Assembly: GCF_023703795.1 (NCBI RefSeq)
Contig: NZ_CP098518.1
Location: 186,001-250,000, forward strand
From: Haloplanus sp. HW8-1
Lineage (GTDB): Archaea; Halobacteriota; Halobacteria; Halobacteriales; Haloferacaceae
Direction: 5' to 3'
Length of the DNA stretch: 64,000 nt
The position numbers were made by a program, and so were the translations under genes. Within the stretch, counting starts at the first letter, position 1; every line of letters starts with the position of its first letter. Positions 53,662-58,933 of this stretch are shown here, piece after piece. A model generated the notes under the pieces. That model ran no database searches and was not told the origin of the DNA. It saw nothing but the letters and a program-made list of their open reading frames with translations.

Positions 53662-53737
53662 CGTCACGGAGCTTGGTATGGGATGACATGGTATATGTCT
53701 TTTCGTCGTGGCAGCGTTTCCGGGCGGAGTGACTGGG

Positions 53738-53744
53738 TTTTTAT
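53738..53744 (+). promoter_or_regulatory. TATA-like box for polB
   Basis: TTTTTAT, 27 bp before ATG 53768, which supports that start over the in-frame 53708 start. Confidence 0.5.
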
Positions 53745-53767
53745 CGGGGAGCGTCGAAGTGGGCGGC

Positions 53768-56700
53768 ATGGAACAGGCGGAGCTCACCGGGTCCTGGGGG
53801 ACCGACGACGCCGACAGACCGGAGGCGGAGGCCGTCGCCGTCGCCGGGGACGTCGGGCAGTCGGTCGCCGAAGTCGTCGACGCCGCGGACCTGAAGTTTC
53901 CCGACCCCGAGGGGACCGTCGACCTCGCGGTCACGCAGGTCGACTACACGATCGAGGGACAGGGGTCCGACGAGTACCCCGTCGTCCACGTGTTCGGGCG
54001 GACGCCCGACGGCGACGCCGAACACGTCCGCGTCCTCGGGTTCGAACCGTACTTCTACGCGCCGACGGCGAGTCTCGACGACGACGACCTGGACCGCGAC
54101 GTGATCACGCGAACGGAGACCGGCTACGAGAGCATCCGCGGCGAGCAACTGACGAAGATCTGTACGCAGACGCCGCGGGACGTCGGGCAGATCCGCGACG
54201 AGTTCGACCACTTCGAGGCGGACATCCTCTTTCCGAACCGCCTGCTGATCGACAAGGACATCGGCGGGGGCGTTCGCGTCCCGGTCCGCAGGCTGGAGAG
54301 CGGGGCGATCCAGGTCCCCCACGACGAACTGGTCGCGGTCGATCCGCCCGAGACCGACCTCCGGGTGAACACGTTCGACATCGAGGTCGACGACCGCTCC
54401 GGCTTCCCCGAGGACGGCGAGGAGCCCATCGTCTGTCTCACCAGCCACGACTCCCACGAGGACGAGTACGTCGCGTGGCTGTACGATCCTGGTACGGGAG
54501 TGACACCACCGGAAGCGCTCGACGAGTACCAACCCTTCCGGGACGACATCGAAGCCGACGTGCGTGTTTTCGAGACTGAGGAGGCCATGCTGGACTCGTA
54601 CGTCGACTACATCGAGCGCGTAACCGACCCGGACGTGATCACCGGCTGGAACTGTCTTCCCGGTGACGCTCGGGTTCTTTTGGCCGACGGCACGGAGCGA
54701 GTCATCCGAGACGTACAGGTCGGCGATACGGTCGTCGGCAACGAGGACCAACGGACGACCGTCGCGGAAGTGACCGACAAGTGGAAGAGTGAGAAGCCGG
54801 TCCTCGAGTTTGACCTCGCCGATGGGACGTCGCTTCGGTCGTCGAGCGAACATCGAATCATGATCGGCGACGACGACTCCGTCGACTGGAAAGAAGGCGG
54901 GGATGTCGAACCGGGGGAGTACGTTCTCAAACCCAGAAAGCTGACCGTCGAGGACGAGACCGTTCCGGCGCTTTCGGAGCTGGTTCCGATCGAAAACCAG
55001 CGATTCGCCGATACCGACGCCGTCAGGTCGTTCAAAGAGACGCTCCCGCACGGCGCGGTCTCCGACCTCGCGGACCAGTTCGACCTCGCGACGGGAACTC
55101 TCTACCACCCGAGGACGGACGTGTGGACGCCGAAGCGATGCTCGATCGCAGCCGAGGAGTTCGACGTCCCGCTTCCGGATGGGGGTCGGACGTATCGTCG
55201 TACCCGTGCCGATCTCGACAGACAACTCACCGAACGGGAGGCGTATCTCGCTGGACTCGTCCTGACGGACGGAACGATGTCGCTCGACGATGGAGTTCGG
55301 TTTTACAACACTCGAACGGAACTGCACGATCAGTTCGCCGATGAGAACGAGTTACTGCCCGACGGGACGGGTTGTTACGCGCAGAACGTCCTCGATTACG
55401 CGATGTTGCACGCGTTCAACGGCCTTGGAATCCCGTTCGGTGACAAAAACGACGGCCCTGTCGATCTCTCGACGGTGTACGAACTACCCGAGGAGTACAT
55501 CGCCCGGTTCCTTGCGGGCGTCATCGATGGCGACGGCAACGTCTCAGACTCGGTTACGGTCGCAGCGGAAAACCGATCCATCGGCAGATGGTACGCCAAG
55601 CTGTTCCGACGACTCGGCGTCTACGCCCACCAGCGGGAGAACGTCGTTCGGATTCCCGATGCCGAGCGTGACCTCGAGCGACTGAAGGAAACCGTTCTCC
55701 CGCATATGTGTCACTCGGAGAAATCACGGGCACTTTCGAACCTCAGTGGGGGTACAAGCGGACGGACGGAAGACATCCCGTACGCCCTCTTCGAGGCCGA
55801 ATCCGGCAGTGACGCTCGGCGTATCGCTCGGGACAAGCACCGGCGAGACATCGCGCTCAAGCGTCACGAAACGACCGTCGAGGCGTGGGAAGAGTACGTC
55901 TTCGTGGCCGTCGAGAACGTCGAACAGGTGGGGACCGAAACGACCTACGACATCGAGACAACCACACACAACTTCGTCGCCGACGACTGTCTCGTTCACA
56001 ACTGTGACGACTTCGACGCGCCGTATCTCATCGACCGGATGGAGGAACTGCAGGGGCCCCACCACGAGTACGACCTGAACCCCGAACGACTCTCCCGGAT
56101 CGACGAGGTGTGGCGCAGCGACTGGGGCGGCCCCACGATCAAAGGTCGGGTCGTCTTCGACCTCCTCTATGCCTACAAGCGCACGCAGTTCACCGAACTG
56201 GAGTCCTATCGCCTCGACGCGGTGGGCGAACAGGAACTCGGGGCGGGCAAGGAGCGGTACACCGGCGACATCGGCGACCTCTGGGAGGAGGACCCGACGC
56301 GGCTGCTGGAGTACAACCTCCGCGACGTGGAGCTCTGTGTCGAACTCGACCGCAAGCGCGACATCATCTCTTTCTGGGACGAGGTGCGGACGTTCGTCGG
56401 GTGCAAACTGGAGGACGCCCCCACGCCGGGCGACGCCGTCGACGTGTACGTCCTGCACAAGGTCCACGGGAACTTCGCGCTCCCCTCGAAAGGGCGGGCC
56501 GACGCCGAGGACTACGAGGGTGGCGCGGTGTTCGATCCGATCACCGGGATCAAGGAAAACGTAAGTGTTCTAGATTTGAAAAGTTTGTATCCCATGTGCA
56601 TGGTGACCATCAACGCCTCCCCGGAGACGAAAGTCGACCCCGAGGACTACGCCGACGACACCTACCGCGCCCCCAACGGCACCCACTTCAGGAAGGAACC

Positions 56701-58933
56701 GGACGGCGTCATCCGGGAGATGGTCGACGAGTTGCTGGCGGAACGGGAACAAAAGAAGGCCGAGCGCAACGACCACGACCCCGACAGTCAGGCGTACGAG
56801 CAGTACGACCGACAGCAGCAAGCTGTCAAGGTTATTATGAACTGCTTCACGTCCGACACCGACGTGTTGACGCCCAACGGCGTCCGGAACATCCGAGACC
56901 TCGAAGTCGGCGACGACGTGTACTCGATCGACCCCGAGACGATGCGGATGGAGACCAAGCTGGTGACCGAGACGCACGCGTATCCGGAGTACCGGGGCGA
57001 TCTCGTCGACGTCGAGACGAGCAAGGTCGACTTCAGCGTCACGCCGAACCACCGGATGCTCGTCCGGAAGGACGACACCAACGGCGTCTCGTGGGACGAG
57101 TTCCGGTTCGTCGAGGCCGGCGACCTGAACGAGTCGTCACACTACGAACTGCCTCACGGTTGGGGGTTCTCGCATCAGGATGCGCTTGGAGAGACGATGG
57201 ACGTGATCGACCTTGTGCGCGAACACACGGATGTTGACATCACGCTATCCGACGGAGGGACGAAAGCCGCCGCGAAGTACGGAACGCCAAACGTTTCTGA
57301 CCGTGTTGAGACTGATGCGTTCCTCGAATTCCTCGCTTGGTACATCACAGAGGGGAGTCTCTACGAGGCAGACACCGCAAACTATCGAGTGAAGATCGCA
57401 CAGGAGGAGCAGACAGAACGTGAACGAATTGCAAACCTCGTGGAACAGTTCGTCGATTACTACTACGCCGACGATCGCTCGGTTAGCTTTTCGAGTCGCC
57501 TTTGGTCGGCGTTGCTAGGGGAACTGTGTGGCCGGGAGAGCGAAACCAAACGAATTCCTGAACTGGTATTTGAGGCTAGCCGCGAGCAAAAGGAACTATT
57601 TCTCGATACGCTCATCGCGGGCGACGGTGACCGTCAGGTGAACAGTTGGCGCTACTCAACGGTAAGTGACCAATTACGCGACGACGTGCTCCGCCTTTGT
57701 GCCCACCTGGGCTTGACCGCGAGCTACAACCGTGACAGCGGGACGTGGCGCATCTACTGCACCGAGAACGCCAAGAACAGTATCCGGATGCATCGCTCGG
57801 GCGGGCGAAGCACCGCCGACGACGGCGTCTACTGTGTTACTGTTGCGGACAATAATACGCTCCTCGCCGGTCGTAATGGGAAATTCCAATTCGTTGGTAA
57901 TTCACTGTACGGCGTTCTCGGATGGGACCGCTTCCGCCTCTACGACCGCGAGATGGGCGCGGCCGTCACCGCCACCGGCCGCGAGGTCATCGAGCACACC
58001 CAGTCGGCCGCCAACGACGTGGGCTACGAGGTGGCCTACGGCGACACCGATTCAGTCATGTTAGAAATCGGAGAGGAAGCCGTTGCCGAGGAGGTTCCCG
58101 ACGAGGTCCGGGAGGCCCACCCCGACGCCGACGAGTCGGATCTCCGACAGATCACTGGCGCCATCGAGACGGGCTACGAACTCGAGGAGAGCATCAACGA
58201 CTCCTACGACGAGTTCGCACTGGAGGAACTCAACGCCCACGAGCACCGCTTCCAGATCGAGTTCGAGAAGCTCTACCGGCGGTTCTTCCAGGCGGGCAAG
58301 AAAAAGCGGTACGCGGGCCACATCGTCTGGAAGGAGGGCAAACACGTCGACGACATCGACATCACGGGCTTCGAGTACAAGCGCTCGGACATCGCACCCA
58401 TCACCAAGGCGGTCCAGCGCCGCGTCATCGAGATGATCGTCACGGGCGAGGACGTCGACGACGTCGAGGAGTACGTCCACGACGTCATCGAGGACTTCGA
58501 GGCCGGAAACGTCGACCTGAACGACGTGGGCATCCCGGGTGGCATCGGGAAACGCCTGACGGCCTACGATACGGACACGGCACAGGTCAGGGGGGCGAAA
58601 TACGCCAACCACCTCCTCGGCACCAACTTCCAGCGGGGGAGCAAGCCGAAGCGACTGTACCTGAAGAAGGTTCACCCCGAATTCTTCCGACGGCTGGAAG
58701 CGGAAGAGGGGTTCGACCCACAGAGCGACGCCCTCTACGGCGAGTTCAAGCGCGATCCGGACGTGATCTGTTTCGAGTACGCCGACCAGATCCCCGACGC
58801 CTTCGAGATCGACTGGGACAAGATGCTGGAAAAGACGCTCAAGGGACCGATCGCCCGAATCATCGAGGCGCTCGATCTCTCGTGGGACGAGGTGAAAAGC
58901 GGTCAGCGACAGACCGGACTCGGTCAGTTCTGA
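53768..58933 (+). CDS. polB: Family B replicative DNA polymerase with two inteins
   Basis: 1721 codons, leaving 918 residues after removal of both inteins. Exonuclease motifs: ExoI VNTFDIEVDDRSGF, ExoII ITGWN/CDDFDAPYL (split by intein 1), ExoIII LEYNLRDVELC. Polymerase motifs: A VLDLKSLYP, B KVIMN/SLYG (split by intein 2), C YGDTDS. The extein codons are GC-rich except for AT-rich patches at motifs A and C. The protein must splice twice before it can replicate DNA. Confidence 0.96.
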   Translation: MEQAELTGSWGTDDADRPEAEAVAVAGDVGQSVAEVVDAADLKFPDPEGTVDLAVTQVDYTIEGQGSDEYPVVHVFGRTPDGDAEHVRVLGFEPYFYAPTASLDDDDLDRDVITRTETGYESIRGEQLTKICTQTPRDVGQIRDEFDHFEADILFPNRLLIDKDIGGGVRVPVRRLESGAIQVPHDELVAVDPPETDLRVNTFDIEVDDRSGFPEDGEEPIVCLTSHDSHEDEYVAWLYDPGTGVTPPEALDEYQPFRDDIEADVRVFETEEAMLDSYVDYIERVTDPDVITGWNCLPGDARVLLADGTERVIRDVQVGDTVVGNEDQRTTVAEVTDKWKSEKPVLEFDLADGTSLRSSSEHRIMIGDDDSVDWKEGGDVEPGEYVLKPRKLTVEDETVPALSELVPIENQRFADTDAVRSFKETLPHGAVSDLADQFDLATGTLYHPRTDVWTPKRCSIAAEEFDVPLPDGGRTYRRTRADLDRQLTEREAYLAGLVLTDGTMSLDDGVRFYNTRTELHDQFADENELLPDGTGCYAQNVLDYAMLHAFNGLGIPFGDKNDGPVDLSTVYELPEEYIARFLAGVIDGDGNVSDSVTVAAENRSIGRWYAKLFRRLGVYAHQRENVVRIPDAERDLERLKETVLPHMCHSEKSRALSNLSGGTSGRTEDIPYALFEAESGSDARRIARDKHRRDIALKRHETTVEAWEEYVFVAVENVEQVGTETTYDIETTTHNFVADDCLVHNCDDFDAPYLIDRMEELQGPHHEYDLNPERLSRIDEVWRSDWGGPTIKGRVVFDLLYAYKRTQFTELESYRLDAVGEQELGAGKERYTGDIGDLWEEDPTRLLEYNLRDVELCVELDRKRDIISFWDEVRTFVGCKLEDAPTPGDAVDVYVLHKVHGNFALPSKGRADAEDYEGGAVFDPITGIKENVSVLDLKSLYPMCMVTINASPETKVDPEDYADDTYRAPNGTHFRKEPDGVIREMVDELLAEREQKKAERNDHDPDSQAYEQYDRQQQAVKVIMNCFTSDTDVLTPNGVRNIRDLEVGDDVYSIDPETMRMETKLVTETHAYPEYRGDLVDVETSKVDFSVTPNHRMLVRKDDTNGVSWDEFRFVEAGDLNESSHYELPHGWGFSHQDALGETMDVIDLVREHTDVDITLSDGGTKAAAKYGTPNVSDRVETDAFLEFLAWYITEGSLYEADTANYRVKIAQEEQTERERIANLVEQFVDYYYADDRSVSFSSRLWSALLGELCGRESETKRIPELVFEASREQKELFLDTLIAGDGDRQVNSWRYSTVSDQLRDDVLRLCAHLGLTASYNRDSGTWRIYCTENAKNSIRMHRSGGRSTADDGVYCVTVADNNTLLAGRNGKFQFVGNSLYGVLGWDRFRLYDREMGAAVTATGREVIEHTQSAANDVGYEVAYGDTDSVMLEIGEEAVAEEVPDEVREAHPDADESDLRQITGAIETGYELEESINDSYDEFALEELNAHEHRFQIEFEKLYRRFFQAGKKKRYAGHIVWKEGKHVDDIDITGFEYKRSDIAPITKAVQRRVIEMIVTGEDVDDVEEYVHDVIEDFEAGNVDLNDVGIPGGIGKRLTAYDTDTAQVRGAKYANHLLGTNFQRGSKPKRLYLKKVHPEFFRRLEAEEGFDPQSDALYGEFKRDPDVICFEYADQIPDAFEIDWDKMLEKTLKGPIARIIEALDLSWDEVKSGQRQTGLGQF
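54653..56002 (+). mobile_element. Intein 1 of polB with LAGLIDADG homing endonuclease
   Basis: 450 residues, Cys1 to Asn450 (polB residues 296-745). Splicing block A begins CLPGDARVLLADG; block B is SSEHRIMIG; the end is CLVHN before Cys+1 (CDDFD). The endonuclease shows LAGLVLTDG and LAGVIDGDG. The host site GWN/CDDFD lies in the ExoII motif, so an unspliced chain would lack proofreading. This site is, from memory, one of several known in haloarchaeal polB. Confidence 0.93.
56555..56590 (+). other. AT-rich codon scar at the empty motif A intein site
   Basis: Twelve codons (ten G/C of 36 bases by count) spanning VLDLK/SLYP, ending TTGTAT, within GC-rich coding. The intein site known in archaeal family B polymerases falls between the Lys and Ser codons here. 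Confidence 0.6.
56843..57901 (+). mobile_element. Intein 2 of polB at the motif B site
   Basis: 353 residues (polB residues 1026-1378). Block A begins CFTSDTDVLTPNGV; block B is VTPNHRMLV; the end is FQFVGN before Ser+1 (SLYG). The residue before the final Asn is Gly, not the usual His. Degenerate LAGLIDADG-like helices read LAWYITEGSLYE and LDTLIAGDGDRQ. The central region is clearly AT-richer than the flanks, and the last 70 bases are AT-rich again. Confidence 0.9.
58049..58072 (+). other. AT-rich codon scar at the empty motif C intein site
   Basis: Eight codons (GATTCAGTCATGTTAGAAATC then GGA; nine G/C of 24 by count) directly after YGDT, where the motif C intein of other polymerases is inserted between Thr and Asp. 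Confidence 0.55.

Follow-up and report, generated by a model that had tools for sequence, protein, structure and literature searches.

The empty intein insertion sites of the family B DNA polymerase gene (polB) of Haloplanus sp. HW8-1 carry short patches of AT-rich codons in a GC-rich gene, and comparable patches recur at the intein sites of polB, MCM and DP2 in other haloarchaea. We regard it as rather likely that the polB patches are targets of homing endonucleases which were recoded synonymously in recurrent escape, with cleavage presumably lost. The gene is located in the 64,000-nucleotide stretch that was analysed (the window; contig NZ_CP098518.1, positions 186,001 to 250,000, assembly GCF_023703795.1). 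Its features are presented in Table 1.

Table 1. Features of the polB gene in the window; a slash marks the intein insertion point
Feature	Position	Strand	Details
polB (family B DNA polymerase) reading frame	53708..58933	+	1741 aa, two inteins included
Intein, exonuclease-domain site D (WN/C)	54653..56002	+	450 aa; intein-splicing and LAGLIDADG / Hom_end matches
Recoded empty motif A site, 12 codons	56555..56590	+	ENVSVLDLKSLY; codons GAA AAC GTA AGT GTT CTA GAT TTG AAA / AGT TTG TAT, insertion point after the ninth
Motif A insertion point (DLK/SLYP)	between 56581 and 56582	+	
AT-shifted codons ahead of the intein at motif B	56819..56842	+	CAA GCT GTC AAG GTT ATT ATG AAC
Intein, motif B site (MN/SLYG)	56843..57901	+	353 aa; Hint and LAGLIDADG_3 matches
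Motif C insertion point (YGD/TDS)	between 58045 and 58046	+	
Recoded empty motif C site, DSVMLEIG	58049..58072	+	GAT TCA GTC ATG TTA GAA ATC GGA

AT-rich patches in the polB gene of the window

The polB reading frame likely begins at an ATG near 53768 and is interrupted by two inteins. The intein at motif B had been recognised in the initial annotation whereas the one at site D had gone unmentioned. Motifs A and C are without intein, and the extein consists of 938 codons with a GC of 0.64 and a GC3 of 0.87. The motif B intein is shorter than usual for its site (353 aa compared to 409–426 aa) and its C-terminal residue is Asn, where the longer motif B inteins that were inspected have Gln. A second, divergent PolB-like protein with 42% identity is present in a Haloplanus genome (L116; G260:C1:2273045-2273683).

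The AT-rich codons at both empty sites had initially been read as scars of former inteins, and the counts behind that reading are reproduced here. At motif A, 10 of the 36 nucleotides are G/C when the gene's own codon choice predicts 19.2 +/- 1.3, and none of 20,000 draws reached so low a count. The extein-wide minimum of GC in windows of 8, 10 and 12 codons is found at motif A, followed by motif B. The footprint at motif A is asymmetric about the cut, with about 9 codons on the left and 3-4 on the right, and beyond about 12 codons the patch stops abruptly. The eight codons of the motif C patch contain 9 G/C of 24, as claimed (14.0 +/- 0.9 expected, p about 2.5e-4), but the insertion point, when placed from intein-bearing relatives, is YGD/TDS and thus one codon earlier than had been stated. 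The milder patch of eight codons reported to precede the motif B site also stands (G/C 9/24, 12.2 expected, p about 0.002). These codons are near to a widespread haplotype, GCT GTC AAG GTT ATT ATG, which is present in empty as well as in occupied alleles.

The eight nearest Haloplanus relatives were used as the reference set for these patches. Seven of them are canonical at motif A, and the window differs from them synonymously in 9-11 of the 12 codons, compared to a background of 22-28% (about 25%) and to 8-38% in the adjacent 30-codon flanks. This excess was tested in three extreme pairs and gave a binomial p of about 5e-7 to 3e-6. The eighth relative (L087) possesses a near-identical motif A patch, with 3 of 12 codons different, and the motif C patch is found unchanged (0 of 8 codons differ) in L118 from the Haloplanus genome G394. 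Among twelve Haloplanus genomes, motif A is occupied by an intein in four and motif C in two. The motif A intein of L086 matches LAGLIDADG_3 with 20.9 bits, just under the cut-off of 22.5, while for the 435 aa motif C intein the splicing domain alone was matched, its length being compatible with an endonuclease. L086 and L087, from two Haloplanus species with intein D, share about 30 identical codons around this intein (extein columns 280-309). Identity in this tract, which is not AT-rich, is far above the background of the pair, and it would appear from the two sequences to be a recent co-conversion.

Three empty known sites were read in the window genome, polB-A, polB-C and MCM-c, and each of them is recoded. 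The MCM-c site (G000:C1, L217) is heavily recoded, its codons being GCA TTG GAA CAG CAA/GAA ATT AGC ATA AGT, and has Glu in place of Ser at +1 (EQQ/EISIS). Both the Glu and the recoding are common to the Haloplanus genomes G394 (L255) and G393 (L261). Splicing chemistry is such that Glu instead of Ser at +1 should prevent intein splicing at MCM-c, and this site may plausibly be doubly protected from invasion by inteins. The DP2 gene of the same genome (G000:C1:2803425-2810054) is an open frame of 2299 aa whose two inteins follow KRRN and QRGG.

Distribution of recoded sites in polB, MCM and DP2

Altogether 191 distinct haloarchaeal polB alleles, sampled from one genome per species, were surveyed after removing the inteins in silico. 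In the 186 GC3-rich alleles, each 9-codon window was scored against the synonymous usage of its own allele (z). The polB tree was generated with FastTree and clades were defined at 86% protein identity; thresholds and several contrasts were picked while viewing the data. Windows at z<-4 are found in several alleles only at or around the polB sites D, A, B and C and at the extreme N-terminus. Their frequency is 10.1% within 10 codons of the four sites, where synonymous shuffles give 0.27%; elsewhere in polB it is 0.11%, with a null of 0.16%. At motif A, 10.2% of the alleles are observed at z<-3.5 when the null gives 4.6%, so that about half of these alleles would be expected by chance; the extreme ones, including the window (z -9.5), would not. 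Counted along the polB tree, the number of switches in recoding state is 16-43 for each site. A weaker AT-shifted cluster, of up to 13 of the 186 alleles at z<-3.5, covers the polB extein stretch AAVTATGREV (columns 594-603; window position about 57960). It lies 20-28 codons past motif B and coincides with no known intein site.

Nearly all strong windows of MCM (65 alleles, four sites) and of DP2 (50 alleles, two sites, with the empty alleles chosen by score) are inside the intein-bearing regions. The AT shift in DP2 reaches some 30 codons ahead of site IIa, farther than a single target site would account for. AT-shifted windows at extein columns about 384-410 of DP2, starting 20-30 codons upstream of IIa, are seen in up to 16-22 of the 50 alleles, and these columns are possibly an additional, undescribed intein target.

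The frequencies of invasion and of recoding are correlated over eight polB and MCM sites (rho 0.81, p=0.015). Empty alleles are also recoded more often in clades where some relative has been invaded (OR 2.2 by Mantel-Haenszel with singletons excluded, p=0.0006). A mirror signal of GC-rich flanks was looked for in the AT-rich Haloquadratum-like genomes, where few alleles are available, and gave no clear peaks; the idea of such a mirror at their B flanks was abandoned.

Occupied and empty alleles

Inteins occupy motif A in 19, motif B in 66, motif C in 31 and site D in 11 of the GC-rich polB alleles. None of the 19 occupied motif A alleles is at z<-4, compared to 16 of the 167 empty ones, a difference which is non-significant by proportions alone (p=0.38). 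The occupied alleles carry ordinary GC-rich codons at motif A (GTC/GTG AGC or ACN ... GAC CTG AAR/TCN CTN TAY) and not the codons of the patch. Within clades, the AT shift is stronger in empty than in occupied alleles at motif C (p=0.0002), motif A (p=0.04) and the two-codon core of motif B (p=0.025). Codon choices which are neutral to GC separate the two states as well: the +1 serine is encoded by AGY in 0/19 occupied and 72/167 empty alleles at motif A (p=7e-5), and in 1/66 occupied and 21/120 empty alleles at motif B (p=6.5e-4). The -1 codon of motif B is AAT in 3/66 occupied and 31/120 empty alleles (stratified p=0.0005). In phylogenetically independent pairs, the B-core feature, which was selected after inspection, goes with occupancy in 1.3 pairs and against it in 11.9 (median p=0.006); motif A (1.0 and 3.8) and motif C (3.4 and 7.5) follow the same direction at non-significant levels.

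Altered alleles are depleted among the invaded ones at motif C, at the B core and weakly at motif A, but not at site D, MCM-a, MCM-c or MCM-d. At site D a difference in AT shift between occupied and empty alleles was looked for and none was found, while at MCM-a, MCM-d and MCM-c the occupied alleles are more AT-rich than the empty ones (p=0.02-0.03; p=0.03 for MCM-a). Occupied alleles are AT-rich in 39 of 66 cases at motif B, 28 of 36 at MCM-a and 12 of 20 at DP2-a, and also at MCM-c and MCM-d. It is possible that tolerant endonucleases have invaded partly recoded alleles, that overlapping scoring windows are responsible in MCM, where the sites lie 14-39 codons apart, or that breaks have been mutagenic in both states.

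Whether the patches were imported or made in place can be judged from their residues and from their relation to the inteins. With host relatedness removed, the partial correlation between flank-codon and intein similarity is -0.06 at A, 0.06 at B, 0.07 at D and 0.31 at C. Variable residues match those of the nearest relative in recoded A patches (0.93, others 0.94) and B patches (0.88, others 0.91) while the synonymous difference in recoded A patches is doubled (0.53 compared to 0.25). Since the A and B patches keep the residues of their lineage, they were most likely made in place. The amino acid match is lower in recoded patches at C (0.69 compared to 0.84) and D (0.77 compared to 0.87), and amino acid change or import is therefore possible there. 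The +1 residue at site D is Cys in 11 of 11 occupied alleles and Phe, rarely Ala, in empty ones.

Proposed escape from homing, its alternatives and known systems

Every intein site sits in a conserved motif, which is what would be seen if the codons had a function of their own at the catalytic motifs, such as translational pausing or RNA structure, independent of inteins. This is hardly credible, since at matched amino acid conservation the rate of AT-shifted windows is 0.07-0.17 near the sites and 0.001-0.003 far from them (0.001-0.005 in equally conserved windows away from intein sites), a control by which a conserved-motif effect was rejected. Moreover, most polB alleles have GC-rich codons at motif A and the state flips many times on the polB tree. 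Repeated cutting and repair could instead produce an AT-biased mutational hotspot near the cut, where purifying selection would spare only silent changes, whether or not the allele contains an intein. AT-biased mutation might plausibly stem from single-strand damage at the repair stage, and mutagenesis of this kind would account for the AT-rich flanks of occupied B, MCM-a/c/d and DP2-a alleles as well as for the confinement of the signal to intein sites in polB, MCM and DP2. We nevertheless hold it to be unlikely, as 19 of 19 occupied motif A alleles are canonical at the z<-4 threshold, GC-neutral serine codons also split empty from occupied alleles, and the motif A footprint is asymmetric about the cut. 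Strand-asymmetric deamination around the break was rejected, the asymmetry looked for (C-to-T on the left, G-to-A on the right) not being seen.

The initial annotation had favoured inteins which came with flanks from AT-richer donors and were later lost precisely. Co-conversion itself is seen in the +1 Cys at site D and in the tract shared by L086 and L087; the AT-rich haplotype at motif B spans genera and is present in both states; and the flanks at C weakly track intein similarity. Where import followed by loss can be tested, however, it fails. Judged by the condition for refutation that came with it, it is refuted at motif A, where the patch codons do not match those of the intein-bearing alleles. 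At A, B and D the flanks do not track the inteins, the A and B patches retain lineage amino acids, and the patch limits are sharp at 12 codons. A degenerate pattern of the motif A patch, matched exactly only and therefore a weak scan, had 0 hits in viral contigs, after which viral import of this patch was dropped. On balance, we find co-conversion followed by precise loss quite unlikely as the origin of the patches.

Synonymous escape from homing endonucleases is the explanation that we prefer. Mobile inteins circulating in haloarchaea would cleave the canonical site and insert copies of themselves there, and cells with enough mismatches in the target would escape homing. Multi-codon recoded alleles would arise repeatedly and then spread, with codons replaced synonymously within roughly the footprint of the endonuclease and with no change to the polymerase protein at A or B; the C and D patches contain some amino acid changes besides the synonymous ones. 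Recoding would abolish cleavage, and selection for that abolition would have driven it. The AT-richness probably follows from synonymous divergence having been pushed to its maximum because, at 87% GC3, nearly any codon swap lowers GC. Synonymous recoding that blocks cleavage had been the other option of the initial annotation. Such recoding is supported indirectly by the site specificity, the independent recurrence, the contrasts at A, B core and C and the higher rate in clades with an invaded relative, and it would presumably block cleavage.

Haloarchaeal polB inteins a, b, c and d occupy four insertion sites, as described in the available text of PMC4071816. Active homing of the Haloferax volcanii polB intein has been shown at one of the four; according to the available text, about 90% of target plasmids receive this intein by homing, and 27% do so when the site is mutated (PMC3024317), which shows that the pressure is real. 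In Haloferax, a site that differs at several, mostly synonymous, positions is nevertheless cut by the MCM endonucleases (PMC10643990), a tolerance which speaks against escape by recoding. If several silent differences do not prevent cutting, strong escape would need several simultaneous changes, and this need would fit the multi-codon patches.

Models of the homing cycle need knowledge of host resistance to selfish endonucleases in essential genes. If escape is the right reading, haloarchaeal genomes record a natural, repeated and protein-neutral resistance, parallel to the resistance alleles of gene drives, and codon usage would make it legible in hundreds of species. Sequence data and simple Haloferax assays would then allow tests of how far endonuclease footprints extend, how fast the arms race proceeds and where intein sites have gone undetected. 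We see about an even chance that haloarchaea possess a synonymous immunity at intein targets which is readable in their DNA, such that codon usage alone marks past endonuclease pressure in essential replication genes, would map footprints and could reveal undescribed intein sites. No prior report of a codon signature at intein sites was found in the open-access literature, which is weak evidence of novelty.

Functional (synonymous) resistance alleles against CRISPR gene drives are changes at the cut site which keep the protein and stop homing. They are engineered, occur in insects and involve one or few changes, whereas the patches described here belong to a natural intein system and span several codons. 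The available text of PMC4071816 and PMC3024317, unlike the present analysis, reports no codon composition of empty sites. Point-mutant escapers of the MCM-a target arise in vivo in Haloferax (mext-a / vext-a plasmid assays, PMC10643990) and are similar in that target mutations appear under endonuclease pressure in a haloarchaeon, with the same class of intein. Those escapers are, however, laboratory plasmids from few colonies, while ours are natural chromosomal alleles with up to 11 of 12 codons recoded, the protein kept, and recurrence across genera and genes. The mcm alleles with a proline after MCM-d (PMC10643990) are likewise natural empty alleles with resistance based in the extein, but their resistance comes from a non-synonymous change that blocks splicing rather than from synonymous recoding of the DNA target. 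The MCM-c site of the window genome seems to combine the two, a splicing block (Ser to Glu at +1) and recoding.
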